Source: a virus. From it: a DNA stretch of 22,831 nt. The notes under the pieces were generated by a model, which was not told the DNA's origin, did no database searches, and saw nothing but the letters and a program-made list of their open reading frames with translations. Within the stretch, counting starts at the first letter, position 1; each line of letters begins with the position of its first letter. Where the stretch lies: IMG/VR virus record IMGVR_UViG_3300032020_000051, positions 1 to 22,831 of that record, one strand, 5' to 3'. The translations under genes and the position numbers were made by a program. Of this stretch, positions 214-18,339 are shown piece by piece.

Positions 214-1040
214 AAGTTAAATTTCATTACAACTATCCGATTAACTTAGATATTGACTGTAATAAAGAGGTTAATGTTTATATAGATCAATTCACACTGG
301 AAGACATCCCGCCGGATTCATTAAGGATTGTCATCTTACAAGAGCCGTGGCGGTCGCCTATGGTCCCGCTGGTGCAGAAGTACGAAGGTTATTATAATTA
401 CGTCCTGACCTATCAGGAAGAAGTTTTATTGACTAATCCAAAAGCTCGGTTATTTCATTTTCCGAATACATGGGTTAAAGGTTATGAGCCGAAAAAAGAG
501 TTCAGTGTTTCAACAGTTGTCGGAGGAAAAAACATACCTATATTGGAGGGTCACGAATTAAGGCATGAACTATGGAGAAACAAGGATATGATAACTATTC
601 CAAAGAAGTTCTATCTTAGTGGGAACGCAAAGCATTTTCATACGTTTGTTCCGTGGAGTGAGGCGGATTATACCGGACAACTTGTTTTAGGTGCTTCAAA
701 AACTCCTTTATTCGATTCAATGTTTCATATTGCGATTGAAAATACTTCAATAGCTAATTTCTTCACTGAGAAACTTGTTGATTGTTTTCAAACCCGGACG
801 GTCCCGATTTATTATGGATGTAGGAATATTGGTGACTATTTCAATATTGAGGGTGGTATGTTTCGGGTGAATAGTGTTAATGAGATTATTGAGATATGTA
901 ACCAATTGACCCCTGATATTTATGAAAGGATGTTACCGGTTTTAAATAATAATTTTGAACGGTCAAATAAATGGTGCGATCAGATAGAGCAATTAAAAAA
1001 TGGCTTAACTTTGCTACTGAAAAATGAGGGATATGTTTAA
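210..1040 (+). CDS. Fucosyltransferase-like glycosyltransferase, family 10 (GT10)
   Basis: This 276-residue protein shows the diagnostic block of alpha-1,3/1,4-fucosyltransferases in its C-terminal half: FHIAIENTSIANFFTEKLVD, then a VPIYYG segment and a D-Y-F motif at about residues 170-210. Known GT10 enzymes have an equivalent IAxEN ... TEK ... PIYWG pattern that binds GDP-fucose. A GH-x-LR element at about 114-118 also fits the family. There is no signal peptide or membrane anchor, so it should act in the cytoplasm of the infected cell. It overlaps the GT11-like gene by 4 bases and is followed by small head-module ORFs, so it would be expressed with virion genes. That placement, plus the recurrent ASG tripeptide in the structural proteins, makes virion proteins a candidate acceptor. 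Modification of host capsule or lipopolysaccharide is the main alternative. Confidence 0.78.
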   Translation: MKVKFHYNYPINLDIDCNKEVNVYIDQFTLEDIPPDSLRIVILQEPWRSPMVPLVQKYEGYYNYVLTYQEEVLLTNPKARLFHFPNTWVKGYEPKKEFSVSTVVGGKNIPILEGHELRHELWRNKDMITIPKKFYLSGNAKHFHTFVPWSEADYTGQLVLGASKTPLFDSMFHIAIENTSIANFFTEKLVDCFQTRTVPIYYGCRNIGDYFNIEGGMFRVNSVNEIIEICNQLTPDIYERMLPVLNNNFERSNKWCDQIEQLKNGLTLLLKNEGYV

Positions 1041-1256: not shown

Positions 1257-1423
1257 AAGATCATGTAATAAAATTTCTAAGGTGGGTAAACAAAAACGCC
1301 ACTCCACGAACAACTTCACGTAATAATATTTACAGGGCTTACTGGAAGCTTAATGATACGGGAGTTTTATATACTGATGAGGAACTATATGATTATTGGA
1401 TTGAAATAACTAAACATGCCTGA
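1253..1423 (+). CDS. Hypothetical small protein, 56 aa
   Basis: The ORF runs from ATG 1253 to TGA 1421-1423 and overlaps the start of the MuF-like gene by 8 bases. The product is basic in its first half (several Lys and Arg) and rich in aromatic and acidic residues in the second (YRAYWKLNDTG, then YTDEELYDYWIEI). I recognise no family. The overlaps on both sides and the lack of any other gene here make it likely real. A role in head assembly is suggested by position only. Confidence 0.62.
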   Translation: MKDHVIKFLRWVNKNATPRTTSRNNIYRAYWKLNDTGVLYTDEELYDYWIEITKHA

Positions 1424-2459
1424 TACAAGCCTTGAATATCGCAATAAGTTTTTAAAACGTCAGTTGCAATATGACCGTAAATTCCGGGAAATATTCAATA
1501 AAGTTGCTGATGACTTTGCAAAATTAAGCAATGATCCGAATATTCGATTTTCAAAAGCTTTTAAATATAACAGCGCAATAAATAAAAAGATTGACATTAT
1601 AATCGAGGCTTTTCATAAAGACGTTTTGGATTTGACTGAATTAGAAATTGAAAAGAGCTGGGGACTAAGTAATTCTAAAAATGATCAGATAGTCAAAGAT
1701 TACCTTTCTACTATTGGCAAAATTAAGGCAGCGCAAAAGGCCGCATATTTTATGCCTAATATCCCGGCACTCAAAGCATTTATTTCCGGCAAGCACGGCA
1801 CGGAGACACTTTCCGATTCAATTTGGCAGATAGCAAAACAGGCAAGGAATGAGTTAAAAATCCACCTCGGAATTGGCATTTCTCAAGGTGATTCAGCTCA
1901 GGTAATTTCAAGGCGTATTCGTCAATACCTCCGGGATCCAAATGCACTCTTCCGCCGTGTACGTGACAATAATGGAAGATTAATTGCAAGCAAAGCAATG
2001 ATTGAAAACGCACCAGGCCAAGGAGTTTATAACAGTGCTTTCAAAAATGCTATGCGGGTGACACGTACAAATGCGAACCAGTCGTTCCAATTAGCTGACT
2101 CGATCCGTTGGAGACAATTAGACATGGTTATAGGTATCGATATTAGATTGAGTGCGCAACATCCTGAGTATTCATTCCCCGAGATATGTGAAGAACTTGC
2201 AGGAATTTACCCGAAAACATATATATTCATAGGCAATCATCCGCAATGTTTATGTATAGCAGTTCCGATATTAATGCCAAAATCTGATTTTAATGCATAT
2301 TTAAAAGGAAATGAACCGCTAAAAGCAAAACAAATAACGGAATATCCGCCAAATTTTAAAGAGTTCTGGAAAGAGAATTTTGATAAGTATTCAAATTATA
2401 AGCAAATGCCGTTTATCATGGAAGAAAATTTGGAGGCAATAAAAAATATCCTGAAATAG
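1416..2459 (+). CDS. MuF-like phage head morphogenesis protein (minor capsid)
   Basis: A 347-residue protein with a helical N-terminal half and a C-terminal MuF-like region at about residues 205-290. In order this shows RVTRTNANQSFQLADSIRW, then WRQLDMVIGIDIRLSAQH, then an H-P-Q-C-x-C element followed by VPIL. These fit the R..TE/N..A....R...W..L....G...RLS..H...C pattern of head morphogenesis proteins encoded just after the portal gene. MuF-type proteins sit in or near the portal vertex and are minor components needed for head assembly, with roles in DNA packaging or ejection. No toxin domain is visible in the C-terminus. Position before the scaffold and capsid genes is normal, although a minus-strand cassette separates them here. 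Confidence 0.75.
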   Translation: MPDTSLEYRNKFLKRQLQYDRKFREIFNKVADDFAKLSNDPNIRFSKAFKYNSAINKKIDIIIEAFHKDVLDLTELEIEKSWGLSNSKNDQIVKDYLSTIGKIKAAQKAAYFMPNIPALKAFISGKHGTETLSDSIWQIAKQARNELKIHLGIGISQGDSAQVISRRIRQYLRDPNALFRRVRDNNGRLIASKAMIENAPGQGVYNSAFKNAMRVTRTNANQSFQLADSIRWRQLDMVIGIDIRLSAQHPEYSFPEICEELAGIYPKTYIFIGNHPQCLCIAVPILMPKSDFNAYLKGNEPLKAKQITEYPPNFKEFWKENFDKYSNYKQMPFIMEENLEAIKNILK

Positions 2460-4134: not shown

Positions 4135-4164
4135 CAAAGTTACAACTTCCAAATGAATTGACAA
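4135..4164 (-). promoter_or_regulatory. Bacteroidetes-type promoter for the HTH gene
   Basis: On the minus strand, TTG (4164-4162) is followed after 19 bases by TAACTTTG (4142-4135). This fits the Bacteroidetes -33 TTG / -7 TAnnTTTG pattern with normal spacing. The -7 box ends about 20 bases before ATG 4115. Confidence 0.6.
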
Positions 4165-4184: not shown

Positions 4185-4201
4185 TCAAAAATATATTTTT
4201 T

Positions 4202-4918: not shown

Positions 4919-5512
4919 ATGCAAACTTCTAAATCAACAGATACCGAAAGGAATTTAGCCGTTGAGCTTATCCTTGAGGATGTTCCTGGTGGGGGGACGA
5001 TTGCGATAAGTGATCTACCTACTGCACAGACCGAGCTAAAGGCTGGGACGCTGGTAGCAGAGGATTCCGACGGGAAATGGCACGTCTCAAAAACTGCTTT
5101 GGTAGCAGGTGCATTACCGGCATCAGGAATTACAACTATAAGGGTTTATAATAACCACACATTCAAAGCAGGTGATCTACTTGGCACAGCAAGCGGAATT
5201 GGTGCATCAGGCGTTAGGATTACAACAATCGCTGCTTCAGGTGCAGGATATGACGTATTCACAATTAGTGCTTCAATGTCAGCAGTTATTCCTGTAAGTG
5301 GAATCTTAATTGAAAGTGCTACATCCGGATTTCCAAATGCTACTGCATGGCGTTATTCCCCGACTGCCGTCACTACTAATACCATTGATACAAATGCATC
5401 GGGTAATCTGGGATGCGGATTAGTAGTACGTGGCCGTGTACGTGAAGGCGAAATGCCTTATCCGATTAATGCAACTGTCAAAGCGTTGCTTCCTTTAATT
5501 CGTTTCGTTTAA
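4919..5512 (+). CDS. Probable head decoration protein, rich in ASG tripeptides
   Basis: A 197-residue, Thr/Ala/Ser/Gly-rich beta-type protein immediately before the major capsid gene. The segment KAGTLVAEDSDGKWHVSKTA and the ending VREGEMPYPINATVKALLPL resemble capsid decoration or head-stabilising proteins of Bacteroidetes phages. It would be displayed on the capsid exterior in high copy. The middle section contains five ASG tripeptides (codons beginning at 5120, 5189, 5204, 5234 and 5396) plus related VSG and TSG, the highest density in the window. Serine codons there are TCA, AGC, TCA, TCA and TCG. If ASG is a modification site, this would be the most modified surface protein. No signal peptide. 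Confidence 0.6.
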   Translation: MQTSKSTDTERNLAVELILEDVPGGGTIAISDLPTAQTELKAGTLVAEDSDGKWHVSKTALVAGALPASGITTIRVYNNHTFKAGDLLGTASGIGASGVRITTIAASGAGYDVFTISASMSAVIPVSGILIESATSGFPNATAWRYSPTAVTTNTIDTNASGNLGCGLVVRGRVREGEMPYPINATVKALLPLIRFV

Positions 5513-5531
5513 CCTTTAAAAAATAAAAGAA

Positions 5532-6617
5532 ATGGAAAGATCAATTTTAAAAGAGTTAACGAAAATAAATGTTGAGGCATACGTTAACCGTCAGCGTGAA
5601 CTGTTTTTGCAGAAACTTTACTGGCAGCAGTTCTTCCCACTAAAATATACCACTCAGTTAACATGGGAATCCCTTGCCGGGTCTGGTGGTAATCCTGTTA
5701 TGGCAGATGTTATTGAATATAACTCATCTGCTCCTCTCAAGTCCCGCAGGGTCATTACCAAAACAACCGGGGATATTCCAAAGATCGCCCTCAAAAGGCA
5801 GATGGATGAAAAGGATATGAATGACTATAACATCCTGAAAGCATTATCAACAGGTGATGCAAACAGAAGTGCACTTCTTGACCTCGTGTTCAATGATATT
5901 GATTTCTGTTATACAGGAGTCATGGCACGTACCGAGTATCTTGCAATGCAGGCTCTTAGCTATGGGTCAATATCACTCACAACTTCCAATAACAATGGAA
6001 TTGTAACCGAGGTTGCTTGTGATTTTGGCATCCCTACCGGGAATAAGACAGCAGCCGCACAGCTCTGGTCGGTTGCTTCGGGTACTCCGATGACTGACAT
6101 CAGAAACCTTACAGATAATGCAAGGGCTTCCGGCTTCCCGCTTGAGTATATGTGTATGGATAGAACAGCATTTACAAGACTGCAGGCATCTACACAGGTG
6201 CAGGAAGAATGGGCTGTGCTCCGTAATACGACTACAAAAGCAACTCCGACTTTCGCAGATTTGAATAATCTATTTGAATCCAGACTTCTTCCGAAGATCA
6301 TACTTGTCGATTCAAACGTGAGGTTTGAAAATGAATTGCATGCATTAAGCAACGTTGCAGCATGGAAAAATGGCTATGTGACCTTTATTCCGGATATAAA
6401 AGTCGGGAACATACTTCACGGTCCGATCGCCGAGGAAACCAGCGAATCAATTAGCAAGAAAGCCATTCAGGTCAAGCGTGATCATATACTTATCTCGAAA
6501 TGGGCAGAATTGGAGCCCTTCGGCGAGTTTACCAAAGGTCAGGCAAATGCTTTTCCGAGGTTTACCGATGTGGATGGTATCTTCATCATGAAGGTTGACG
6601 CAGTTTCGTGGTCTTAA
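5532..6617 (+). CDS. Major capsid protein (lambda gpE-like family)
   Basis: A 361-residue protein in the right position and of the usual size for a major capsid protein. The N-terminal part has VNRQRELFLQKLYWQQFFPL. The middle has SSAPLKSRRVITKTTGDIPK followed by IALKRQMDEKDMNDY, the 'I P K ... R . M . E . D' signature I associate with the major capsid protein E family (HK97 fold). The C-terminal part includes a domain with KIILVDSNVRFENE and a GPIAEET loop. It contains two ASG tripeptides (near 6075 and 6126). A hairpin terminator follows immediately. Confidence 0.78.
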   Translation: MERSILKELTKINVEAYVNRQRELFLQKLYWQQFFPLKYTTQLTWESLAGSGGNPVMADVIEYNSSAPLKSRRVITKTTGDIPKIALKRQMDEKDMNDYNILKALSTGDANRSALLDLVFNDIDFCYTGVMARTEYLAMQALSYGSISLTTSNNNGIVTEVACDFGIPTGNKTAAAQLWSVASGTPMTDIRNLTDNARASGFPLEYMCMDRTAFTRLQASTQVQEEWAVLRNTTTKATPTFADLNNLFESRLLPKIILVDSNVRFENELHALSNVAAWKNGYVTFIPDIKVGNILHGPIAEETSESISKKAIQVKRDHILISKWAELEPFGEFTKGQANAFPRFTDVDGIFIMKVDAVSWS

Positions 6618-6626
6618 TCATATTTT

Positions 6627-6659
6627 AACAGGGGAGTGGGATATTCCTGTTCCCTTTTT
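6627..6659 (+). terminator. Rho-independent terminator after the major capsid gene
   Basis: AACAGG (6627-6632) pairs perfectly with CCTGTT (6646-6651) across a 13-base loop, followed by CCC and five T. It lies 10 bases after the capsid stop and before the next start. Partial termination here would favour capsid mRNA over the connector genes. Confidence 0.6.
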
Positions 6660-6671
6660 AATAAAATTAAG

Positions 6672-6983
6672 ATGACAAATTTGGAGGCAATAAAGGCAAA
6701 GTTGAATTATCCACTTTCGGAAAATGCTTTTATTCTGGCATTACAAGATAGGGGACTTACTTCAGCCGGTATCTATTCAAGTTGTGAAGCCTTTGATCTG
6801 GCTTATGCTGATGCGATCACTACATTGGTAACAGCTCCGAATGTCACTGAAGGGGGTTATCAGATCAGTTTAACTGACAAGACATCTCTTTTAAATTTGG
6901 CAGCCGGGATTTATATAAAATACGATAAAGTGAATCCGATTAGTTCTTTGAAAAAAACGGCAACTTTTGTACAGCGATTCTAA
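6672..6983 (+). CDS. Probable head-tail connector (adaptor) protein
   Basis: ATG 6672 gives 103 residues. An upstream in-frame GTG at 6636 is rejected because it lies inside the terminator hairpin. The protein begins MTNLEAIKAKLNYPLSENAF and is mainly helical, ending LKKTATFVQRF. Size, helical content and position directly after the major capsid gene match the adaptor proteins that bind the portal. The stop overlaps the next start (TAATG). Sequence recognition is weak, so the call is mostly positional. Confidence 0.52.
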   Translation: MTNLEAIKAKLNYPLSENAFILALQDRGLTSAGIYSSCEAFDLAYADAITTLVTAPNVTEGGYQISLTDKTSLLNLAAGIYIKYDKVNPISSLKKTATFVQRF

Positions 6984-7297
6984 TGAATCAATATCCTGAT
7001 AGTATTGTCGTAACTACTTCCGCATCCGGTTCGCAAAATGCAAGCGGGGTGTGGACGGCGGGGGCAACAACTGATTATACTTTCGATTGCCGGGCAGAAG
7101 TGAACGGCACGGGGAAAAAGATAGCCGGGTCTGATGGGTCATTGACAGAATATTCATTTGATGTCTTTATGCCTGTTACAACGGTCATAATACCTCCGGG
7201 GTCTGATTTTGTTCTTACTGCACTTTCAAATTGTTCGATTACGGGTAAGGTAAAACGGGCTTCAAATGGTCAGTTAAATTCAAGATTATGGCTTTAA
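6983..7297 (+). CDS. Probable head-closure (stopper) protein
   Basis: A 104-residue beta-rich protein between the putative adaptor and the tail-completion protein, which is where head-closure proteins of siphophages lie. The middle (TDYTFDCRAEVNGTGKKIAG, then a Tyr/Phe-rich strand and VIIPPGSDF) fits a small SH3-like or stopper-like barrel. Two ASG tripeptides lie close together near the N-terminus (SASGSQNASGVW), a region likely exposed on the neck. Overlaps its neighbours by 1 and 10 bases. Function by position. Confidence 0.5.
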   Translation: MNQYPDSIVVTTSASGSQNASGVWTAGATTDYTFDCRAEVNGTGKKIAGSDGSLTEYSFDVFMPVTTVIIPPGSDFVLTALSNCSITGKVKRASNGQLNSRLWL

Positions 7298-7755
7298 AGA
7301 GTAATTTCAACGAGGCTAAGTCGATGAAGGATGTTGAAAAACAGGCCGATACGTTATATCAGAAGATCATCAATGCATTTATTTATGATGCAGAGGCTTT
7401 TATAGCCAATGCACGCGGACAGATGCAGGATCATGCAATGGGGACTTATAAGGATCAGACGACAAACCTTCGTAATTCAATCGGTTATTTTATTTTCCAT
7501 AATGGAAAATTAGTACATGAAAAGAATGAGATTGTTACAAATAAATCAAAGGTGGAGGAACTTATCAAGCCTTCGGGATTTCAGATGATTCTTATTGCAG
7601 GTATGAATTATGCATCGTACGTTGAGTCGAAAGGATATAATGTTATTTCTTATCAGGCAGATGTTTGTATGATAGATTTGGCGTTACATCTCGAAAAGTT
7701 AGAAATAATCAAAGAAGAAACTGCGGCACAGATGGAAGAGACTTTTAATCCTTAA
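7288..7755 (+). CDS. Tail completion / neck protein (HK97 gp10-like)
   Basis: A 155-residue protein starting 10 bases inside the previous gene. Residues 50-70 read GTYKDQTTNLRNSIGYFI and later GMNYASYVESKGYNVI. Together these resemble HK97 gp10-type neck proteins, which have a 'D.TGNLRNSI ... YA..VE..GY.V' pattern. Such proteins join the head-tail interface and are needed to complete the tail end. No ASG is present. Confidence in the family is good; the precise position in the neck is inferred. Confidence 0.68.
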   Translation: MALKSNFNEAKSMKDVEKQADTLYQKIINAFIYDAEAFIANARGQMQDHAMGTYKDQTTNLRNSIGYFIFHNGKLVHEKNEIVTNKSKVEELIKPSGFQMILIAGMNYASYVESKGYNVISYQADVCMIDLALHLEKLEIIKEETAAQMEETFNP

Positions 7756-7759
7756 ATAA

Positions 7760-7891
7760 ATGAGAAAAGGTACGAAAATTTACCATTGCCACGGCAAGGA
7801 TAAAGGCAAGATTTTGAGCAAACATAAAACTGTTGTGAAGGCTAAGGCAGCACATAGGGCAATAATGGCTAATAAGAAAAAAAAGAGATAA
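7760..7891 (+). CDS. Small, very basic 43-residue protein
   Basis: ATG 7760 to TAA 7889-7891, filling the gap between two neck/tail genes; the next ATG follows directly. The product starts MRKGTKIYHCHGKDKGKIL and ends with NKKKKR. Of its 43 residues about 15 are Lys or Arg and four are His, so it is strongly cationic. A Cys flanked by His (HCH) could bind metal, but one Cys alone is weak evidence. I know no function. It could bind nucleic acid or be a minor virion or assembly factor. Tight spacing makes it a likely real gene. Confidence 0.65.
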   Translation: MRKGTKIYHCHGKDKGKILSKHKTVVKAKAAHRAIMANKKKKR

Positions 7892-8287
7892 ATGTCTGAT
7901 TATAAAACAACAGATTATATAATAGGGGTTATTTATTCACTTTTGGGATCGATTACGAAACCAAAATTCCTGAAAACAAAACCATCAAAATCAACTGCAC
8001 CGGAATACGTGGTTATTAATTCTCTGTCTATAAATGCTAATGTAATGCAAAAGTGTTATGTCAATGTGAATTATCATGTTAAAGATATAGATGGGGGACC
8101 GGGAATAGGATTTATGCAGGATGCTACAAAACTTGAGGCCGGATCAGCATTAGTTCTGGCGGCATTAAAAGAAGTTTCAACAACTGCTTATCTCATTGAT
8201 TTTGAAAGTCAGGAGACAATTCGAGAAGAAGGACTTGGAGAACATTATTCAAATTTAAGATTTAGTTTCAAAAACATTAATAATTAA
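7892..8287 (+). CDS. Probable tail terminator protein
   Basis: A 131-residue protein between the neck gene and the tail tube gene. Its core has EYVVINSLSINANVMQKCYV followed by NVNYHVKDI, and it ends with SNLRFSFKNINN. A short alpha-beta protein with 'EYVVIN ... VNVNYHV' before the tube protein is typical of tail terminator proteins, which cap the tail and bind the head neck. No ASG tripeptide. Called by position plus this pattern. Confidence 0.6.
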   Translation: MSDYKTTDYIIGVIYSLLGSITKPKFLKTKPSKSTAPEYVVINSLSINANVMQKCYVNVNYHVKDIDGGPGIGFMQDATKLEAGSALVLAALKEVSTTAYLIDFESQETIREEGLGEHYSNLRFSFKNINN

Positions 8288-8291
8288 AAAT

Positions 8292-8786
8292 ATGGCAGTT
8301 TATTTATTTGGAGTAAAATCCGTCAAATACGGAACAGCAGCAACAGGAAGTAATATGCCTTCTGGTACAGCATTGACGTCATTACCGGACACAGTAAAAG
8401 GAACAGTAAGTATTGAGGAAAGTACGGGGGCTACTGAAAAATTTTTTGTCGATCAAAAAGCAGCACCTATTAAAGTTATAAAGACTGAAGAGAGTGAAGT
8501 GTTGGCAAAGATGCAATTTTATGATTTGACATTTACAACAGTTGCAGCGCTCAAGGGTGGTACGGGAAATAGCTCAGAATACATTCCCGCAACCGGGTTT
8601 TCGCAGATTGAACTGGCTCTTGAGATCGAGACAAATTCGGGGCATAAGTTTCAATTCTATAATGCTTTTATCGAGGCTCATCTCACAGGAGGTGGTGGCA
8701 GGGATAAGATGTTCGCTTTGGAATTGAATGCTATCCCGCAGATGACATTAGACAATACTGGTAGCTGGAAGATTAGAGTGGTTTAA
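8292..8786 (+). CDS. Major tail (tube) protein
   Basis: A 164-residue, beta-rich protein (LPDTVKGTVSIEESTGATEK, then FYDLTFTTVAALKGGTG) directly before the tail-assembly chaperone, the usual place of the tube subunit. Size and strand-rich pattern fit tube proteins of siphophages. It is followed by the strongest terminator in the window, consistent with high, separately tuned expression. It has no ASG, though it has PSG, unlike many of the other virion proteins here. Confidence 0.65.
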   Translation: MAVYLFGVKSVKYGTAATGSNMPSGTALTSLPDTVKGTVSIEESTGATEKFFVDQKAAPIKVIKTEESEVLAKMQFYDLTFTTVAALKGGTGNSSEYIPATGFSQIELALEIETNSGHKFQFYNAFIEAHLTGGGGRDKMFALELNAIPQMTLDNTGSWKIRVV

Positions 8787-8788
8787 TT

Positions 8789-8816
8789 AAGAGCCTCTGA
8801 ATAAGAGGCTTTTTAA
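8789..8816 (+). terminator. Rho-independent terminator after the tail tube gene
   Basis: AGCCTCT (8792-8798), a GAATA loop and AGAGGCT (8804-8810) form a perfect 7-bp stem, extended by AAG/TTT pairs, followed by T's. It is the clearest terminator seen. It sits between the tube stop (8786) and the chaperone start (8818), so downstream genes must depend on read-through or another promoter. Confidence 0.82.
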
Positions 8817-8817
8817 G

Positions 8818-9228
8818 ATGAAACAGCAAGTTTCAAATATCCTACTCGGACGTCCCGGCCCAGCTGATTCATTCCGTTTAAAATGGGGTTGGTTTACTTT
8901 TAAATTGTCTATACGGCCAATATCAACAAGACGGTTAATTAAAATCAGCGGAGAGATATGCCAGATAAGAGACTTTGAAGATGAGAACGTATCTTATTTT
9001 CAGGCACTCATGGAACATGCCAAAGATGCTGAATTTATCAGTCGGGCTATTGCGATTGCAACAGGAACACGGTTTGTCAGAATAGTGACACATGCAATAT
9101 CCAAACTTCCGAATAAAGATCAAAATACTCTCTTTAAGATTGTCATCAAAAATTCAGATGCGGAGATTTTTTTTTGGAATATGGCATTGGCCAGAAAGAT
9201 AAATATACTGAAGAAGAAACCGGAGTAG
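8818..9228 (+). CDS. Tail assembly chaperone (gpG-like)
   Basis: A 136-residue protein between the tail tube and tape measure genes. In siphophages this slot almost always holds a tail assembly chaperone, which coats the tape measure and recruits tube subunits, made in a short and a frameshifted long form. The protein is mostly helical (FQALMEHAKDAEFISRAIAI). Near its end, after AEIFF, the mRNA has nine consecutive T (9167-9175), and an open -1 frame continues from there. The zero-frame product ends WNMALARKINILKKKPE. Confidence 0.7.
   Translation: MKQQVSNILLGRPGPADSFRLKWGWFTFKLSIRPISTRRLIKISGEICQIRDFEDENVSYFQALMEHAKDAEFISRAIAIATGTRFVRIVTHAISKLPNKDQNTLFKIVIKNSDAEIFFWNMALARKINILKKKPE
9168..9174 (+). 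other. Candidate -1 ribosomal frameshift site (T TTT TTT)
   Basis: In the zero frame the codons read ATT TTT TTT TGG, giving the slippery heptamer T TTT TTT at 9168-9174. After a -1 slip, reading resumes as TTG GAA TAT, in the frame that is open to 9425. All slip-site pairings are retained in the -1 frame. No stimulatory stem was worked out. Confidence 0.65.
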
Positions 9229-9425
9229 CAAAAGGAGGTGTTAGTCTTTTTGGTCGCCTTGCAATGTACCGGACAAAATTACATTTAACCGAAGAAGAAG
9301 TCATGAATAAAAGTTGGATTGCATTGCAGATTGAAAGTGCTGATTTACCCTGGTGGGATTTTAAGGGGAAGAAAGTGATTATTGGCAAAGAGGCAAATGA
9401 TTATCTTGAAAAATATATAAAATAA
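9174..9425 (+). CDS. -1 frameshift extension of the tail chaperone (gpT-like part)
   Basis: An open -1 frame of 83 codons follows the slippery run and ends at TAA 9423-9425, which overlaps the tape measure ATG. It has no ATG before its Met codons deep inside; only a TTG within the slip site could start it, so it is best read as the C-terminal part of a fusion. The fused protein would have 119 residues from the first frame plus 83, about 202. Features seen: EEETGVAKGGVSLFGRLAMY, then a helical region and a Trp-Trp pair (LPWWDFKGKK). In known G/GT systems the extension binds the tape measure. Confidence 0.7.
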   Translation: MEYGIGQKDKYTEEETGVAKGGVSLFGRLAMYRTKLHLTEEEVMNKSWIALQIESADLPWWDFKGKKVIIGKEANDYLEKYIK

Positions 9426-12106
9426 TGTCAGAAATTCACTTTTCCGCCGATTTAGACTCCTCCAAATTAGAGGCAACCATCAAACAATCAAATAAAACTA
9501 TTTCCGATTGGTCTAAAGATGTTGAAAAGGCAGGGGGTCAAGTTGACCAATCCTTTAATAAGCTCGGTAAGTCTTTTAAAGATACAATCAGGGAACAAAA
9601 AGAGCTCATTAAATCTATCGAACAGGATGTTAAGGCTTTGCAGAAGGCGTATGATGATGCGGCGGCTGGACGGGCAAAACAAGCTGTGGGTGCTGAATTA
9701 AGATCGGCAAAAAAAGCACTGGCTGAAGAGCAGGGAATTTTACTTGGATTACAAAAACAGCAGATAGCAGCAAATGAAAAAGAAGCTGAATCACAGGAAG
9801 GGATCATCGGAAAGTTAAAAGGATGGGCTTTAGGACTCGTGACTGTTGGCGCTGCATTGAAAATTGCAAAAGGTATAATTGATTCAACTGAAGCATCAGC
9901 AACCGCATTTGAAAAAGTAATTGCCGGAGCCACTTCAGCAGTCGGATATTTTTTTAAAGCGATTGCATCCGGCGACTGGACTAACTTTTTTAGCGGTCTG
10001 GGGAATGCCGTGAAAGGTGCAGTGGAGTTTGTCGATACGATGGAGAGGCTTAATAACAGGCTGAATGAACAACAAATAAAGTCCTCTGAGATTGATATAC
10101 AGATAGCGGAACTGCGGGATAAGACTTACGATAAAGATGAGGCAAATAATGAAGAAAGAAAAAAAGCATTAGCGGAGATTGTTAGATTACAAGAGAAGAA
10201 ATATAAAGCTGAAGCAAAATTAGCAGAGGAAACCTATAATGCGAACCTAAAAAGAGCTGCCAGCGATAGCGGATTATCAGAACAGCAGATTAAGAATTTC
10301 ATCAAAGAATACAGTTCATTTGAGGACTTGATTGAAATAGGTGAGAAGTATAATAAGCTTCAAAGGTTAATGTTTATGCCGGGGGTAACTAACATGTTTC
10401 TGGATGAACTGGAAAAAGAAGTGAAACTGCTTGGACCAGGTGCTGCAGAGGCGGGGAAATATGTAAAGCAGGTTGGAAAAATAACAATAGAAACAAGAAA
10501 GCAGTTAGCTGATTTTGCAGTCAAAGCAAATGAAGCAGAAGCAGCATTTGGTCAGAAGAATCGGAGGGATAAGATGCAACTGGCCGAAGTTACTAATAAA
10601 ATAAATTCCGAAGCAGAGGCAGCAGCAAAAAAAGCACAGGAAGATACTGAAAAACAAGCAGATTTAAACTTTCAATTAGTCGAACAGAAAAAATTACTGG
10701 AAAAGGCAGTTGTTTCCGGCAATGAAAATGAAATAAAGGCTATTGCTGCAAAGATTGTTTTATTACAGCAAGAATTGGCATTAAGAGAAAGGCTCACAAC
10801 TCAGGCTATTGGAACTGCAATAATTAGGGAAGCTACGATTTCAAAGATAACAGGATTTAAAATACCAACATTGTTACCTGGAGGGATAAAAGCTCCGAGT
10901 ACTTTGGCTGAAGTTTCGCCATATGATACAGGAGCAGGAGATTATATCCCAGGTACAGTAATGCTTTCTAAGCAAGGATGGGCTAAACAGAAAAAGGATT
11001 CTGATGAATATAATAAAAATGCGGAAGAATCTCTTAAAAGACAATTAGAATTAAGGAATCAAATAGTTAATGCCGCTGCTAATTTAGTTTATCAGATCGG
11101 TCAGGCAGTAGGTTTGCAGGATAAAGAACTCGCTCAATTAGATAGTTATCTGAATGCATTTTCTCAATTTGCATCTGGTGATGTTGTCGGAGGTGTAATG
11201 AGCATGGTATCTTCTGTAATAATGTCATTTCCGAGTGCTGCTGAAAAATATGCCAATGAAATAGAAAGACTTAACGGGTTGTTAGAGGAACAGCAGAGAT
11301 TAATCGAATTATCGGAACGTAAAGGAGGCAAAGGAACAGCCCTTGCAGGTGTCACTGATATAGCACAACAGACATTAAAAGAAAATGAAGAAGCTCTTGC
11401 ACAGGCAGAATATAAATTAAGGCATTCCCGTGGAGGGATATTTTTCAGTAAGAGGTGGAAGGACGTTGAGGAGTTAACTCAGGCCGTTAAGGAATCAAAA
11501 ATAGCAGTTGAAGAAGCACAGCAGGCTTATGATGATTTCATTACAGGCGGAATAACTGAAAATACCATTGCCGATGTTATTGCTCAGGGATTTCAGGAAG
11601 GGAAAACATCAGTTGATGACTTTGCCGATTATATGAACCAGGTACTTATAGATGCTGTAATGAATGTATTTACAGATACATTGCTTTCAAGTCCTAAAAT
11701 GAAAGATTACATGGAGTGGCTTAAGGGTGCAATGACGGGGGGTATCACTGATGCAGAAAAAGAAGAAAATGCCCGAAGGATAGCAGAGATAGCAGCAGAG
11801 AATAAAGCAGCTTATGAAGCGATGACAAGCGGGTTAGATATGAGAGGGAATATTGCAAATATAGGAATGGTAGGAACACTTCAAAGATCGATTACGGAAG
11901 AGACCGGAACGGAACTTGCAGGGCTTTTTAGAAGATTTGCGGACGATAATCGTACAACAAAAGATTATACTTTGGCAGGATTAAACCATTTGGTCGGGAT
12001 AGAGAAAAATACTTATGGCAGTTGGCAAGAACTTTTAATAGTTAATACAAAATTAGATTCTGTTATAGCAAATACAAGAGCGCAATATACTTCACCACTT
12101 TCTTAA
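9425..12106 (+). CDS. Tail tape measure protein
   Basis: An 893-residue protein, the second longest in the window, following the frameshifting chaperone pair. It has long Lys/Glu/Ala/Gln-rich coiled-coil stretches (about 20-125 and 225-460) and hydrophobic segments near 130-150, 165-180 and 585-605. Tape measure proteins set tail length and move into the host envelope at injection. At the usual rough figure of 1.5 angstroms per residue, a tail of about 130 nm is inferred. Two ASG tripeptides (AIASGDW, QFASGDV) lie next to hydrophobic segments and may be chance. No peptidase domain recognised. Confidence 0.85.
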   Translation: MSEIHFSADLDSSKLEATIKQSNKTISDWSKDVEKAGGQVDQSFNKLGKSFKDTIREQKELIKSIEQDVKALQKAYDDAAAGRAKQAVGAELRSAKKALAEEQGILLGLQKQQIAANEKEAESQEGIIGKLKGWALGLVTVGAALKIAKGIIDSTEASATAFEKVIAGATSAVGYFFKAIASGDWTNFFSGLGNAVKGAVEFVDTMERLNNRLNEQQIKSSEIDIQIAELRDKTYDKDEANNEERKKALAEIVRLQEKKYKAEAKLAEETYNANLKRAASDSGLSEQQIKNFIKEYSSFEDLIEIGEKYNKLQRLMFMPGVTNMFLDELEKEVKLLGPGAAEAGKYVKQVGKITIETRKQLADFAVKANEAEAAFGQKNRRDKMQLAEVTNKINSEAEAAAKKAQEDTEKQADLNFQLVEQKKLLEKAVVSGNENEIKAIAAKIVLLQQELALRERLTTQAIGTAIIREATISKITGFKIPTLLPGGIKAPSTLAEVSPYDTGAGDYIPGTVMLSKQGWAKQKKDSDEYNKNAEESLKRQLELRNQIVNAAANLVYQIGQAVGLQDKELAQLDSYLNAFSQFASGDVVGGVMSMVSSVIMSFPSAAEKYANEIERLNGLLEEQQRLIELSERKGGKGTALAGVTDIAQQTLKENEEALAQAEYKLRHSRGGIFFSKRWKDVEELTQAVKESKIAVEEAQQAYDDFITGGITENTIADVIAQGFQEGKTSVDDFADYMNQVLIDAVMNVFTDTLLSSPKMKDYMEWLKGAMTGGITDAEKEENARRIAEIAAENKAAYEAMTSGLDMRGNIANIGMVGTLQRSITEETGTELAGLFRRFADDNRTTKDYTLAGLNHLVGIEKNTYGSWQELLIVNTKLDSVIANTRAQYTSPLS

Positions 12107-12124
12107 TATTTTGTATCTTTGATT

Positions 12125-12793
12125 ATGAAAAATTCAGGAATATATAAAATTCAGTCAGTCATAAAACCGGAACGATTTTATATTGGCAGTGCTGTTAATT
12201 TTAAAGATCGTTGGAATAATCATATAAGTCAATTAAGAAAAAATATCCATCATTCTAAAAAACTCCAAAGGCATTATAATAAGTATGGTGAATTGGATTT
12301 AGTTTTTATAATCACTGAACCATGTTTCCCTCAATTCTTAATTATTCGTGAACAATATTATATCGATACATTAAAACCTTATTTTAATATTTGTCCAAAA
12401 GCTAATAGTCAATTAGGAATCAAACGATCAAAAGAGGTATGCAGAAAAATGAGTATATCGATGCAAGGGAAAAATAAAAGTAAGGGTAGGATAATGAATG
12501 AGGAGACAAAACAAAAAATAAGCATAGCTAACAAAAATAAACATTTTGGGCCACTTTCAGAAGAACATAGAAAAAAACTAAGTATGGTAAAAATTGGAAT
12601 GAAACTTTCAAAAGAACATTGCAATCGTATAAGTGAATCTAAAAAGGGATATATAATGTCAGAAGAAACAAAGCGAAAGATAGGAAAGGCAAATAATGGT
12701 AATAAAAATTGGTTTGGGAAACGTCATTCAGAAAAAGCGAAACAAAATATGAGGGATGGATGGGTTTTGAGAAAATTAAAAAAGGCATCATAA
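12125..12793 (+). CDS. GIY-YIG homing endonuclease with NUMOD3-like repeats (copy 1)
   Basis: Starting at ATG 12125 (an in-frame TTG at 12119 is less likely), the protein has 222 residues. The nuclease domain shows GIY (5-7), YIG (19-21), Arg29, Glu76 within REQYYID and Asn88, the same order as catalytic residues of I-TevI-type enzymes. The rest is basic with repeated 'G.K.SEE..+KIS' segments like NUMOD3 DNA-binding modules. It lies between the tape measure and distal tail genes and disrupts neither. Such enzymes cut phage lacking the insertion and spread by repair. It is clearly related to the copy at 18.4 kb. Confidence 0.9.
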   Translation: MKNSGIYKIQSVIKPERFYIGSAVNFKDRWNNHISQLRKNIHHSKKLQRHYNKYGELDLVFIITEPCFPQFLIIREQYYIDTLKPYFNICPKANSQLGIKRSKEVCRKMSISMQGKNKSKGRIMNEETKQKISIANKNKHFGPLSEEHRKKLSMVKIGMKLSKEHCNRISESKKGYIMSEETKRKIGKANNGNKNWFGKRHSEKAKQNMRDGWVLRKLKKAS

Positions 12794-12797
12794 TAAT

Positions 12798-13682
12798 ATG
12801 TACAAACTTGACGGATTGGACTTATACAATACTTACAATATACGGGCAGGTCATGCACCGGGTTCAAATATTGCGATTCAGAATTGTTTTAATATGCCGG
12901 AAAGAACAGGGGATTGCTTTCATGAATGGGGGGATACTGATGGCATAGAGCCTTATACCGATTCAGAAGATATAATGTTTAATGGAAGAGATATTTTTTT
13001 CTCAGGCTCAATTATCGGCACAAATTCAGTTGTCAATGATAATATAAAAACATTTTACAAAGCCATTAATGCAGCAACGGGGCTGAGTGTATTTGAAACG
13101 CCCTATATGAGTGCTTCCGGTTATGTTAAGTCAGTAATCCCTGAAGTATTAAACGGCGGTGCTAAGATTGTAATGACTTTCCGGGAACCGGTAGTAACAC
13201 TGACAGGGATACTTCCGGCATCAGGTTTGAGTAACTGCACTATTGACAAAATACCTTTTTTATCTTTTGGATTTTATTTGTCCAAAGCAGAGGCACTTCA
13301 TGACTTACCAGAATTAAAAGAACAATTTTTCACGAAATACGGAGCAGAGAGTTATCAGATCGTAAAACGTAAAAATAAGACATTGGACTTTAATGGTTTT
13401 ATTATGGGAACTTCACTGGCTGATTTTAAGACTAAAATATCAGCATTATATAAATTATTTTCTTCATCCGGGACCAGAAATATAAAGATCAATGATGAGA
13501 TAAATGTGGATTGTTTTGCTACTGAGGGTTTTAAGGTCAGCGGGATATATCTTTATAATAATCTTACAATTGCAAATTTTATGGCAAATTTAATGGCTGT
13601 AAATGTGAATTATATCAATGAATTAGCTAATGAAGACGGGGTATTAATTACTAATGAAGACGGTGTACAAATTTTAATTTAA
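12798..13682 (+). CDS. Probable distal tail protein (Dit-like)
   Basis: A 294-residue protein located after the tape measure (and the inserted endonuclease) and before fibre and tail-tip genes. The N-terminal part (MYKLDGLDLYNTYNIRAGHA, then FNGRDIFFSGSI) resembles the tail-tube-like domain of distal tail proteins, which form the ring joining tube and tail tip. The second half has a domain with FYLSKAEALHDLP. The end is a repeat of the kind NEDGVLITNEDGVQILI, common at the ends of tail proteins in Bacteroidetes phages. Two ASG tripeptides (MSASGYV, LPASGLS). Confidence 0.6.
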   Translation: MYKLDGLDLYNTYNIRAGHAPGSNIAIQNCFNMPERTGDCFHEWGDTDGIEPYTDSEDIMFNGRDIFFSGSIIGTNSVVNDNIKTFYKAINAATGLSVFETPYMSASGYVKSVIPEVLNGGAKIVMTFREPVVTLTGILPASGLSNCTIDKIPFLSFGFYLSKAEALHDLPELKEQFFTKYGAESYQIVKRKNKTLDFNGFIMGTSLADFKTKISALYKLFSSSGTRNIKINDEINVDCFATEGFKVSGIYLYNNLTIANFMANLMAVNVNYINELANEDGVLITNEDGVQILI

Positions 13683-13687
13683 AAATC

Positions 13688-14236
13688 ATGGCAACCAAAA
13701 AGTTTTCTTCCGAGTTAAATAGTCGGGGTACTGTAAAGATTACCGATAAACTCATGATACAGAATATTGACACGGGAGTTGTTGAATATACCACAGTTCA
13801 AGAGTTACTTGCTGCACTTGCTATTTATGGCAACGTCGGCATCGGGACGACTGCACCAGGAAAAAAATTACAAGTGGGTGATGGTACTGCAGGAGTTGAA
13901 CGAATAAGAATTTATGGAAATGCTACCGCAGTACTTGATTTAAATGTTGCGGTGGATGATGCCGCATCTCGTAATTGGAGTTTAGTTACAAATATTGATG
14001 ATTATGGAGATTTTGCAATTAGTCAAAGTACTGCAAAATGGGGGGATGGATATGGTGGGACACAAAGATTGCATATTAAACCTAATGGCAACGTTGGCAT
14101 CGGGACGATTATACCTACTTCAAGATTGCATGTTGTGGGATTGCCAGAATATAATGACAATGCTAATGCTGCTGCCAGCGGACTTACAGCCGGAGCATTT
14201 TACAGAACAGGTGATTTGTTGAAGATTTGCCATTAA
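13688..14236 (+). CDS. Short tail-fibre-like protein with GNVGIGT repeats
   Basis: A 182-residue protein with two copies of the fibre repeat G-N-V-G-I-G-T..P...L.V (about residues 53-67 and 135-149), which is widespread in phage fibres and often precedes an S74-type chaperone domain. No chaperone domain is present. It ends GLTAGAFYRTGDLLKICH, a complete, familiar type of fibre end. The N-terminus (KFSSELNSRGTVKITDKLMI) looks like a virion-binding part. One ASG (AAASGLT) lies in the final segment, where related fibres that I recall have Ala/Gly. The two GNVGIGT copies are also almost identical in DNA. Confidence 0.62.
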   Translation: MATKKFSSELNSRGTVKITDKLMIQNIDTGVVEYTTVQELLAALAIYGNVGIGTTAPGKKLQVGDGTAGVERIRIYGNATAVLDLNVAVDDAASRNWSLVTNIDDYGDFAISQSTAKWGDGYGGTQRLHIKPNGNVGIGTIIPTSRLHVVGLPEYNDNANAAASGLTAGAFYRTGDLLKICH

Positions 14237-14240
14237 GAGA

Positions 14241-14255
14241 AGTTGTATGACAACT
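14241..14255. repeat. Small hairpin in the fibre / tail-tip spacer
   Basis: AGTTGT (14241-14246) and ACAACT (14250-14255) form a perfect 6-bp stem with a 3-base loop. There is no T-run after it, so it is not a standard terminator; it might protect mRNA ends or be chance. Confidence 0.3.
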
Positions 14256-14292
14256 CTAACTCTATATCATTAAAAACTAACAAGAAAGTAGC

Positions 14293-17244
14293 ATGAATAC
14301 TTTGGAAATTTTCAGACCGCCGACTACTTCGATTGTAGTTATTCAAATTGACGAGAAAACGGTATTTTCTAAAAAATTGATGGGCGAACATATTATAGTT
14401 TCTGAATTTATTTCATCATCTATTTTACCAATTCAGATTGGAGATTATATAATTTTTTTAGCCGAGAATTATTATATCAATAGACTCCCTTCGATTGAGA
14501 AGATAAATAACAATACTTACAAGTACCAAATTCAATTTGAATCTACCGTTTATAATCTTAACAAGAAACTGATTATTTCCAGTGATTTATTGGCGGATTT
14601 TTCATACAATGGTACGGCATCTGATTTTATTACGTTAATAATTTCAAATATCAATGAGATTGACGGTACTCCGGCTTGGTCATTGGGGACAATTGACACT
14701 ACAATAGAGAGAACGCTTAGATTCACAAATGAATCCTGTCTGGCGGCACTTAAAAGAGTAGCTGAGGCATTTGATAAAGAGTTTGAAATAGCCAGTAAAT
14801 CAATAAGTTTAAAATCATCAGTTGGTGCAGATACCACATACCGTTTTGAATATGGCAGGGATTTGGGACTTTATAAACTTGAACGCCAGCAAGTACAGGA
14901 TCAGAATATAGTTACAAAAGTCTATGGATTTGGAGGTGAAACGAATATACCGTCCGGTTATCGCGATGGAGCAAAACGATTAAAATTTACAGCCGGCAGC
15001 GGGACATTAACAAAGAATACTACTTTATACGGGACTATTGAAGGACAGTTTACAGATAATGATATTTACCCTAATCGGACAAGTACATTAACGACGGTGA
15101 ACTATGCTGCTGCCAGCGGATGGAACGCAAATACGGATTATCTGGTCGATTCTGCAATGAATTTCAATCTGAATAATAATATTATTGCAGGGCAGACAGC
15201 AAAAATAGTATTCAAGTCGGGCGATATTGAAGGAGTAGAATGTGAGATTTGGAAATATGATAATAATGCTTCGGGATTTTACATTACTCCATTTACTGAT
15301 TCAGACGGGTATGTTCAGCCGAATGCAATCGCACATCCGCACGCGGGAGACAGTTACACGCTTGTTAATATCTCACTGCCTCAATCTTATATAGACACGG
15401 CAGAGACAACTTTGCAAGTGGCTACACAGGCATATTTGGATGAGAATTGTATTCCGATGGTAGTGTATGCCATTGAGATTGATCCTAAATATGCAAGCAG
15501 TATCACTCTTGATCTGGATGCCGGGGATAAAGTTACAGTTGTAGATACCGCTTTAGGAATTAATTCCCTTATCCGGGTTAATAGTATTGAATTTCCACTG
15601 GTTGATTCTTATCAGATAAAAGCTACTATTGCCGACTTTATTCCTTATACGCTCCAGGAAAGACTTATAAAGTCTGCAATTTCCACACGCAAAGAAACCG
15701 TATTTGTTGATCGGAGAGTATCTGAGCAGGCCCGTAGAAATACTGTCAACCAGAAATCATTAAGAGACCTGCTTTTCGATACAGATATGTATTTTGATCC
15801 TGTAAACTTAAAACCATTAAGTATTGAGACGGCTTACCTGGCAGTAGGTACAAAGTCGAGAGATTTCTGGCTCTCAAATGTAACTATTAAAGCAAATTAT
15901 CTGTCAGATGCGAATAGAATCTATATCAGTGCAGGATCGCTGATACATCTGCAAATAGAGATTACCGGACTTGGTTATACGTGGGTAATTGGATCGGCAC
16001 TGGATCAGGCTTCACTTACTCCTGCTTCAGCTTATTATCTTTATGCAAGATGTTCAAAAGCAGCATTAACAGGTAATTGGGTTTTATCAACAAGTCAGAT
16101 AACAGTTGAACAAGAGACTGGTTATTATCATTTTCTTGTAGGAATGCTTTTTGCCGTCGCTGATGGATGGAGAAATTTTGACTTTACTAATGGCATGACT
16201 TATATAAATGGGAATACAATCACTACTGGAAAGATACAGTCTATTGACACGAATAATTACCTTGACCTTACCAATAATAAATTTAAAATCGGCAATGCGA
16301 GCGGATTTGTTGACTGGAATGATAGTGCTTCTGGCGTGTTGACAGTAAAAGGAGCTGTTGTATCAGATCTCGTGATGGCTGAATATGCTACTATTGAAAA
16401 TCTGGCTGTGCAGTATTTCAACGGTATCCCTGTCCTTGCTGGTGATCTGGACGGGACAGTTGTAAATACCCAGGCTAATTATCCTTTATCTGCTCAATGG
16501 GACTCTGGTTTTTATTATGTGATAGATGATAAATGTTCTAATGTTGCTATTAATTATATATCAAATGCTTCTGGCGTAAATCACGAACCTCCGAATGTCG
16601 AATATTGGGATGTTGATCCAAATCAGCCAGTAGCTCGCATTGATACAGTTACATTAAATACAGGGACATCAGGAACAGCGAATATCCTTTGTGACGGCGT
16701 TACTAAGTTAGCTACTTTCTTTAACTCATATACTGAAACTGCTACTGCATTTGCAGTCTTATATGCAGCTGATTATCTAACAGGTGGTGTTGTGGTTACT
16801 TCATCCGGGGCAGATATTATTTTCACAGCTCAAACAGCTGGAGTGAATTTTACAGGTAACACAACAATAACTAATGTGGCAAATAAATGGAAAGGAGCTG
16901 TTAATATAGAAGGTAATGATATTTGGGAGAATGAGGAAGATAATGATGATTATGGGGTGGTTAAAATTAACCAGAAAGGATATCATGGAGGAGTTACAAG
17001 AAGAAGAATAACAATAATCGGCGGGGGACTTGGTTATTCGGTTGCTATCTTTAGCCCTACAGAAAAACCAGCATTTGCACTTCGACCCGGATTAGATATT
17101 AGAGTTGGTGCATTATCAGTCCCTCGATTGACGACTGCTGAAAGAGATGCTTTTACTGGAGAAAATGGTATGATAATTTATAATACCACAACCGGACATT
17201 TTCAGGGTTATGATCAAAATTGGTATAATATAACATTAAGTTAA
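14293..17244 (+). CDS. Large tail-tip / tail-associated protein with fibre-like C-terminus
   Basis: At 983 residues the largest protein in the window. The N-terminal 470 residues (for example FEYGRDLGLYKLERQQVQDQ followed by NIVTKVYGFGGETNIP) resemble the baseplate-hub-type domain of tail-associated proteins of siphophages. The middle (about 480-720) is beta-rich, and the C-terminal end LTTAERDAFTGENGMIIYNT ... W is a common fibre ending. It probably caps the tail and contacts the host surface. Five ASG tripeptides occur, including a pair 8 residues apart (NASGFVDWNDSASGV). Peptidase activity, sometimes present in this class, is not evident. Confidence 0.65.
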   Translation: MNTLEIFRPPTTSIVVIQIDEKTVFSKKLMGEHIIVSEFISSSILPIQIGDYIIFLAENYYINRLPSIEKINNNTYKYQIQFESTVYNLNKKLIISSDLLADFSYNGTASDFITLIISNINEIDGTPAWSLGTIDTTIERTLRFTNESCLAALKRVAEAFDKEFEIASKSISLKSSVGADTTYRFEYGRDLGLYKLERQQVQDQNIVTKVYGFGGETNIPSGYRDGAKRLKFTAGSGTLTKNTTLYGTIEGQFTDNDIYPNRTSTLTTVNYAAASGWNANTDYLVDSAMNFNLNNNIIAGQTAKIVFKSGDIEGVECEIWKYDNNASGFYITPFTDSDGYVQPNAIAHPHAGDSYTLVNISLPQSYIDTAETTLQVATQAYLDENCIPMVVYAIEIDPKYASSITLDLDAGDKVTVVDTALGINSLIRVNSIEFPLVDSYQIKATIADFIPYTLQERLIKSAISTRKETVFVDRRVSEQARRNTVNQKSLRDLLFDTDMYFDPVNLKPLSIETAYLAVGTKSRDFWLSNVTIKANYLSDANRIYISAGSLIHLQIEITGLGYTWVIGSALDQASLTPASAYYLYARCSKAALTGNWVLSTSQITVEQETGYYHFLVGMLFAVADGWRNFDFTNGMTYINGNTITTGKIQSIDTNNYLDLTNNKFKIGNASGFVDWNDSASGVLTVKGAVVSDLVMAEYATIENLAVQYFNGIPVLAGDLDGTVVNTQANYPLSAQWDSGFYYVIDDKCSNVAINYISNASGVNHEPPNVEYWDVDPNQPVARIDTVTLNTGTSGTANILCDGVTKLATFFNSYTETATAFAVLYAADYLTGGVVVTSSGADIIFTAQTAGVNFTGNTTITNVANKWKGAVNIEGNDIWENEEDNDDYGVVKINQKGYHGGVTRRRITIIGGGLGYSVAIFSPTEKPAFALRPGLDIRVGALSVPRLTTAERDAFTGENGMIIYNTTTGHFQGYDQNWYNITLS

Positions 17245-17246
17245 CT

Positions 17247-17462
17247 ATGAAAAAACTATTATCAATTTGTCTATTAGTTATTTGTCTTTTCAGTTGCGAA
17301 AGAAATGATTGTCAAATATGTACAGTATATGCGCCGGAAACATTAATTATACGAACCTTTATAGTTTGTGGAGATGAAGTTGTCGAATATCAAAATAAGA
17401 AAAACATCGAAATAATTGACGGGGTAAATATAATAACAAAAACAACTTGTATAAAATATTAA
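17247..17462 (+). CDS. Small Cys-rich lipoprotein
   Basis: A 71-residue protein with a lipoprotein signal: MKKLLSICLLVICLFSC, in which LFSC (residues 14-17) is the lipobox, so Cys17 would be lipidated. The mature part is about 55 residues with four more Cys (about 22, 25, 42 and 68), so two disulphides are possible in the periplasm. It starts 3 bases after the tail-tip gene. Phage lipoproteins among tail genes (such as T5 Llp) block the receptor or genome entry of later phages; by that analogy this is a superinfection-exclusion candidate. Nothing in the sequence identifies a target. Confidence 0.6.
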   Translation: MKKLLSICLLVICLFSCERNDCQICTVYAPETLIIRTFIVCGDEVVEYQNKKNIEIIDGVNIITKTTCIKY

Positions 17463-17497
17463 TATTTTGACAAATAAAGTATAACTGTAATAAAATT

Positions 17498-17851
17498 ATG
17501 GCAACAGCATTAAATATAAAACGAGGCAATCCGTACGATGCTACGATAACAGTCACAAATGCATCCGGTAATCCTTACGATCTGACTGATAAGACTGTAT
17601 TTTTCACAGTTAAAAAATCAATAGATACGGGAACAGATGATTCATTGGCAGTGATTACTAAGAACATAACATCTCATACTAACGCCAGTGGGGGAATAAC
17701 TACATTGGCATTGACAGCATCACAAACAAATATTGTTCCCGGCGATTATAACTGGGATTTAAGAATATATGCCGGGTCTCCTTTGGTGCAACTTAATACA
17801 ACTTCAGGGGCTTGTAACATCATAGAAATTATAACTAAAAGAACTTCATAA
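17498..17851 (+). CDS. Baseplate upper protein-like (BppU-type) domain protein
   Basis: A 117-residue beta-sandwich-type protein: GNPYDATITVTNASGNPYDL, then TDKTVFFTVKKSIDTG, then TTLALTASQTNIVPGDYNWD. This is the familiar 'G.p.dLtg.tv.f.vr ... l.p..T..l.pG.Y.yD' pattern of BppU N-terminal-like domains in receptor-binding complexes. ASG occurs at two loop positions (TNASGNP, TNASGGI) where related domains that I recall have Asp/Gly-type turns. The stop overlaps the next ATG (TAATG). It probably anchors the following appendage proteins to the tail tip. Confidence 0.6.
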   Translation: MATALNIKRGNPYDATITVTNASGNPYDLTDKTVFFTVKKSIDTGTDDSLAVITKNITSHTNASGGITTLALTASQTNIVPGDYNWDLRIYAGSPLVQLNTTSGACNIIEIITKRTS

Positions 17852-18339
17852 TGGCAGACAATATAAGTGTACCAATAACAGAAGAATCCATCACAGTAAT
17901 TATATCAGAAGGCGTTACATGGGACGGTATTTCCGGCAAACCTACAGCCGTTGCTGAAAGTAGTTTTATAGTTAGTGATGCGACTCCATTCAGTTGGTTT
18001 GTTAAGACACTTGCTCAGGTTAAGACAATACTCGGATTAAACTTAGCAGTCCAGACAATCCCTTTTGCTATTCCGCTGGCTATTGATGTCACGACTTATA
18101 AAGATTGGAAGTGTACCACTGCATCAGGTGATACGACTCTTAATATAACAGGTGAAGCAGACGGCGAGGCTGGCATGGTTGAAATCTATAATTCTGCCAG
18201 TGGTGTTATTACTTTAGGTACGATGTTTACAAAGAACGCAGGAGGTGGAACGATGGATTCAGCAGCCAGCGGTGATAATATTATTGCTTGGACAAAAAGC
18301 GGTAGTGATATAATTTTTTCAATCAGTCAAGTATCTTAG
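17851..18339 (+). CDS. Tail appendage protein, ASG-containing
   Basis: A 162-residue protein coupled to the BppU-like gene. The N-terminus (MADNISVPITEESITVIISE, then WDGISGKP) looks like a short virion-attachment segment. The C-terminal half has the beta-strand pattern DTTLNITGEADGEAGMVEIY, then ITLGTMFTKNAGGGT, which resembles the small beta domain found in many phage fibre proteins. Three ASG tripeptides fall there, each in a likely turn (TTASGDT, NSASGVI, SAASGDN). A homing endonuclease gene follows after about 20 bases. Function is inferred from position and pattern. Confidence 0.55.
   Translation: MADNISVPITEESITVIISEGVTWDGISGKPTAVAESSFIVSDATPFSWFVKTLAQVKTILGLNLAVQTIPFAIPLAIDVTTYKDWKCTTASGDTTLNITGEADGEAGMVEIYNSASGVITLGTMFTKNAGGGTMDSAASGDNIIAWTKSGSDIIFSISQVS

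Follow-up and report, generated by a model that had tools for sequence, protein, structure and literature searches.

The virion proteins of an uncultured siphovirus-like phage are strikingly rich in a tripeptide, Ala-(Ser/Thr)-Gly (A-(S/T)-G), that is well supported as a sequon; it probably serves as an acceptor site at which enzymes encoded by the phage O-glycosylate these proteins in the cytoplasm of the host, although there is no chemical evidence for this. Modification of the Ser/Thr residue itself is likely, whereas the glycan nature of the attached group is inferred; glycosylation by the products of a phage-borne cassette is the best reading, with the assignment of enzymes left open. The window—that is, the whole stretch of DNA analyzed, a 22.8 kb (22,831 nucleotides) record of an uncultured virus—contains a siphovirus-like head and tail gene module. 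No near match for it was found among phage records, where the closest capsid protein is only 39% identical to the major capsid protein of the window. The host is inferred to be probably a member of the Bacteroidota, because one relative (L076) sits within a Bacteroidota metagenome-assembled genome and more distant relatives were found in Bacteroides, Parabacteroides, and Proteiniphilum genomes.

The original prediction, made from the window alone, held that Ala-Ser-Gly (ASG) recurs 24 times in nine virion proteins as a candidate modification sequon. Both the total and the count for each protein were found to be exact, with all copies lying within positions 5120–18273:

4919..5512, plus strand: decoration/head-fibre-like protein (PHROG 20501); five ASG, at 5120–5128, 5189–5197, 5204–5212, 5234–5242, and 5396–5404
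5532..6617, plus strand: major capsid protein (HK97/lambda fold); two ASG, at 6075–6083 and 6126–6134 (Ser183 and Ser200)
6983..7297, plus strand: head closure protein; two ASG, at 7022–7030 and 7040–7048
9425..12106, plus strand: tape measure protein; two ASG, at 9965–9973 and 11171–11179
12798..13682, plus strand: distal tail protein; two ASG, at 13113–13121 and 13218–13226
13688..14236, plus strand: short fibre-like protein; one ASG, at 14174–14182
14293..17244, plus strand: tail tip protein (Prophage_tail, PF06605); five ASG, at 15112–15120, 15268–15276, 16297–16305, 16327–16335, and 16567–16575
17498..17851, plus strand: BppU_N-like protein; two ASG, at 17561–17569 and 17684–17692
17851..18339, plus strand: appendage protein; three ASG, at 18121–18129, 18196–18204, and 18265–18273

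Together, the nine proteins comprise 3,293 residues (9.6% Ala, 7.1% Ser, 7.7% Gly), a composition from which 1.71 ASG are expected, in line with the one or two that had been estimated. ASG occurred 1.7 times on average and at most 9 times in 2,000 within-protein shuffles, and 6.6 copies are expected under a first-order Markov model; it is by far the most frequent tripeptide in the set, the runner-up occurring 7 times. The other orders of the same residues had been put at two to five copies each, which holds for AGS (5) and SGA (3) but not for SAG, GAS, or GSA (1 each). The Ser codons are distributed as had been claimed (TCA 5, TCC 5, TCG 3, TCT 3, AGC 6, AGT 2), and a DNA-level repeat is ruled out because all six are used and the Ala and Gly codons vary as well. 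Equally in keeping with the earlier claim, no protein of the window outside the nine contains ASG, whether transferase, methyltransferase, HTH protein, homing endonuclease, or lysis protein. Overlooked in the original prediction was Thr at the central position: ATG is also enriched, 4-fold across relatives.

Relatives were collected via the capsid protein, with ASG counted contig by contig. Those with at least approximately 70% identity in the major capsid protein show ASG enriched approximately 4- to 20-fold, with 17–24 copies in long loci. Below 64% capsid identity, ASG was at background except for two or three intermediates with a weak excess and some small counts (weak exceptions being L035, 7 vs. 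1.9 expected, and L036, 4 vs. 1.1 expected), and sister lineages with homologous virion proteins show no excess. In the capsid tree, the enriched contigs form one clade (support 100/98), inside which the intermediate L076 falls. Judged from the alignments, ASG is gained repeatedly within this clade, because it occupies 57 distinct columns over 13 proteins, half of them (29) confined to a single contig; ATG occupies 22 columns, 12 of which are never Ser. Most sites in the tip protein are unshared between relatives, and in the decoration protein a clade-conserved ASG turn stands where the sisters have polar turns. Retention of ASG in homologues only where alignment forces it would have refuted the prediction; instead, close relatives show the excess again, with the sites shifted to other places.

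The residue requirement was resolved by comparing an enriched set of 118 virion proteins (13 contigs, 29,031 residues) with a poor set of 88 homologues from 22 ASG-poor contigs. The enriched set contains 166 ASG against 15.2 expected (10.9-fold) and 65 ATG against 16.1 expected (4.0-fold), with other A-x-G tripeptides near background (AAG 24 vs. 18.5, ADG 15 vs. 10.8, ANG 4 vs. 11.3, and ACG 0), whereas the poor set contains 12 ASG against 12.3 and 14 ATG against 13.6. Central residues other than Ser and Thr all occur at near 1 per percent of composition, Ala being the highest at 1.7. Among x-S-G tripeptides, PSG is raised too in the enriched set, but it is also raised in the poor group. Flanking preferences are for Ala, Pro, and Asn at −1 and for Tyr, Ile, and Leu at +1. 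A sequon is expected to be an over-represented motif in which one position is always Ser/Thr, as is observed here, and the centre of the motif must be a hydroxyl residue, a requirement that fits the trace of an O-linked acceptor and not that of turn propensity.

A sequon for virion proteins should also be confined to them relative to the other proteins of the same genomes. In three genomes, the virion proteins contain 24, 22, and 23 ASG against 2.0, 2.2, and 2.2 expected, and the non-virion proteins 2, 1, and 1 against 2.0, 2.1, and 1.2, respectively. The prediction would likewise have failed had host proteins shown the same rate, but the surface/secreted-type loci of the Bacteroidota genome bearing L076 show no excess (13 vs. 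12.7 expected). The general O-glycosylation motif of the Bacteroidota, D(S/T)(A/I/L/V/M/T/S/C/G/F) (PMC8698959), was rejected as a candidate, with 25 copies against 21.0 expected in the virion proteins of the window, in none of which does Asp directly precede ASG. Among the ASG-poor phages tested, no other tripeptide was comparably prominent, the one exception being a low-complexity stretch of GGG in L132.

In an AlphaFold2 model of the decoration protein (pLDDT 84), all five ASG serines were placed outside strands and helices, in loops, and in that of the capsid protein (pLDDT 71, approximately 90 at the sites) both serines lie in loops flanking helix 186–199. The capsid model matches HK97/lambda capsids; a fold search with the decoration model against solved structures gave no match at E ≤ 0.001. 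Thus, all seven modelled serines are in loops or turns, as had been supposed, although solvent exposure was not computed. Because approximately 54% of residues in the decoration model and 42% in the capsid model are coil, the predicted loop placement is merely consistent with exposed sites and is no proof of exposure. Furthermore, the ASG sites of the tape measure protein, and some others, may be inside the particle.

The enzymes proposed to act on these sites are encoded next to the head genes, the window retaining only the end of their cassette:

1..213, plus strand: GT11 fucosyltransferase, truncated by the contig end to its C-terminal part (PF01531, E 1.5e-7)
210..1040, plus strand: GT10-like fucosyltransferase, the last cassette gene (PF00852, E 4.7e-5, 23.6 bits)
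1416..2459, plus strand: MuF-like head morphogenesis protein (PHROG 7625/1657), the right border of the cassette

The GT11 gene is complete in four relatives (L002, L003, L018, and L023). The GT10-like match falls just below the curated Pfam cut-off of 23.9 bits, and the gene shows 56–86% conservation in ASG-rich relatives covering that place. In longer contigs, a cassette of 10–14 kb lies between the portal and MuF genes, with GT11 and GT10 forming its end; its genes encode a 326-residue transferase (PHROG 7162, without a Pfam match), three GT2-like transferases, DegT/RfbH aminotransferases, an epimerase, transketolase halves, a methyltransferase, GT11, and GT10. Some members add nucleotidyltransferase, CDP-glucose-dehydratase-like, and RfbH genes, and some add GDP-mannose dehydratase (GMD) together with a GDP-fucose-synthase-like epimerase, or GT32; cassette content differs much between close relatives. 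Phage-encoded glycosyltransferases, which the glycosylation reading requires, are thus present both in the window (GT11 and GT10-like) and in relatives (GT2, GT11, GT10, and GT32). The cassette is observed throughout the clade: GT10 is present in every one of the 12 enriched contigs that extend this far, the window included, and is absent from the intermediate L076, whose cassette is a different one and whose ASG excess is only partial. Of 36 ASG-poor loci showing both portal and MuF genes, some of which represent one phage present in two collections, 35 lack any cassette homologue at this junction, and the remaining one (L071) has the 326-residue transferase alone.

This association has little phylogenetic replication, because motif and cassette each appear once, together at the base of one clade in the capsid tree. 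An unrelated lineage (L108, L202, and L205; terminase PHROG 6681, portal PHROG 6547) carries homologous GT2a/GT2b/GT2c genes, plus GT10 in L108, with no ASG excess in the visible virion genes, leaving GT2a/b/c and GT10 unsupported as the sole determinant. The 326-residue transferase is likewise unsupported in that role, with relatives in L071 and L151 (44–47% identical), L132–L134, and coliphage PaulScherrer that lack the excess, which is also absent from the distant GT10 carriers L110–L119. Since the L108 lineage, L071, and L151 carry homologues without excess, no single transferase predicts ASG, and no one gene of the cassette tracks it across lineages; either the combination does, on present evidence, or the enzyme that determines the motif has yet to be identified.

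Several further features of these loci were observed. In L108, L202, and L205, the GT2/GT10 cassette lies just upstream of the terminase gene and is a glycan cassette common to unrelated phages. Relatives of the 326-residue transferase occur in glycan cassettes adjoining virion genes of other phages (L132, L133, and L134) and in Justusliebigvirus coliphages (MZ501100, 47580–50756; annotated as a putative disaccharide synthase). The gap between the MuF and scaffold genes (2459–4202 in the window; 18430–23102 in G001) is a cargo site, holding a methyltransferase gene in the window, a ParB-like gene in G002, and genes for an acetolactate-synthase-like enzyme, PanB, an epimerase, and an aminotransferase-like protein in G001. 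Two GIY-YIG-like homing endonuclease genes (12119–12793 and 18362–19048) lie among the tail genes, with similar ones elsewhere in the tail region of relatives and in unrelated phages (L197 and L211). Short lipoprotein-like reading frames with an LLSCEK-type lipobox, at 17247–17462 in the window and also in L019, L023, G001, and G002, vary in position within the clade and perhaps encode superinfection-exclusion lipoproteins. A reading frame at 19609–20703, overlapping the end of the preceding gene, contains approximately eight repeats of approximately 34 residues (TLGAATGYYGGVLAPNGSIYLIPLNAATIKKIDTNTDVIT) and has no homologue among the related contigs compared.

Virion proteins remain in the cytoplasm. 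In the mechanism proposed, a sugar would be attached there to the Ser/Thr hydroxyl and then lengthened by cassette enzymes—the three GT2-like transferases, the 326-residue transferase, GT11, and GT10—using donors supplied by the deoxysugar and GDP-fucose enzymes, and selection would have put sequons into the loops of proteins from head, tail, and tip, spreading the glycan over the whole particle. Four elements of this scheme are inferred: modification of the hydroxyl, the glycan nature of the added group, its attachment by cassette enzymes, and a role of the glycan in shielding or receptor binding. It is quite possible, if somewhat less likely than not, that a general cytoplasmic phage-encoded O-glycosylation system recognises A-(S/T)-G wherever it lies in an exposed loop and lays a fucosylated deoxysugar coat on head, tail, and tip; its starter would be a protein O-glycosyltransferase of a new type, perhaps the 326-residue transferase or one of the fucosyltransferases acting directly on protein.

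Explanations without cassette glycosylation were also weighed. ASG might simply be a favoured beta-turn or loop tripeptide of the clade, unmodified and propagated by drift and by selection for folding, as the loop placement of all modelled sites and the replacement of polar turns (DG, NG, GG) of relatives at some of them would allow. This is unlikely, given that turn formers are not enriched at the centre (ANG 0.35-fold, ADG 1.4-fold), that other orders of Ala, Ser, and Gly are not enriched, and that sister-clade homologues with the same folds show no excess; turn propensity as the sole cause is ruled out by the spectrum of central residues. It is also improbable that a real Ser/Thr modification (phosphate, acyl, or host glycan) is made by a host enzyme or a non-cassette phage enzyme, with the cassette altering the host surface like seroconversion genes. 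The known Bacteroidota sequon is not enriched (25 vs. 21), the surface proteins of the one relative-holding Bacteroidota genome lack the excess, and the annotated cassette genes include no recognisable integral-membrane Gtr trio, even though cassette homologues do occur in an ASG-poor phage lineage and cassette content is variable between close relatives, as in O-antigen loci. Finally, the methylidene-imidazolone (MIO) group of histidine and phenylalanine ammonia-lyases arises from Ala-Ser-Gly. Its formation by cyclisation here can be virtually dismissed: the identical tripeptide, and thus only the ASG count, stands behind it, whereas ATG is enriched too, the sites occur across proteins of unrelated folds, and the capsid protein is modelled with the HK97/lambda fold and not that of an ammonia-lyase. 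The modification proposed in the original prediction is therefore supported, none of the refutation tests that were run having gone against it, but modification itself remains unshown.

Phage seroconversion (gtr) cassettes, whose target is the host O-antigen, resemble the present cassette in that glycosyltransferases are carried by phage; we know of no sequon left by them in virion proteins. To our knowledge, phage virion glycosylation systems are few and none has a tripeptide sequon, and literature searches of partial coverage returned no such phage system. Virion glycosylation has been reported for mycobacteriophages (Freeman et al., 2023, Cell Host Microbe, as cited in PMC11256854), where phage-encoded glycosyltransferases are likewise involved and glycans are on virion proteins; the present case differs in that a tripeptide sequon extends over nine virion proteins, with many sugar-nucleotide enzymes in the cassette and the chemistry unproved. 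Chlorovirus PBCV-1 makes its capsid glycans with its own enzymes, including the GDP-fucose enzymes GMD and GMER (PMC5408694), and is similar in its virus-encoded glycosyltransferases and in having sites outside the host sequon, but its glycans are N-linked, on one major protein of a eukaryotic virus. General O-glycosylation in the Bacteroidota shares the O-linkage, a three-residue motif, and a fucosylated glycan (inferred here), but is a cellular system with a D(S/T)(A/I/L/...) motif (PMC8698959). Virion glycosylation is thus already known, whereas a tripeptide sequon across a phage virion appears to be new.

If the glycosylation reading is true, glycosylated virion proteins and their sites would be predictable from sequence alone, a new O-glycosylation motif and enzyme would become available for glycoengineering, and a tripeptide census could uncover other such systems among uncultured viruses. 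Overall, this would be a phage whose entire particle has evolved to match the glycan machinery that it encodes.
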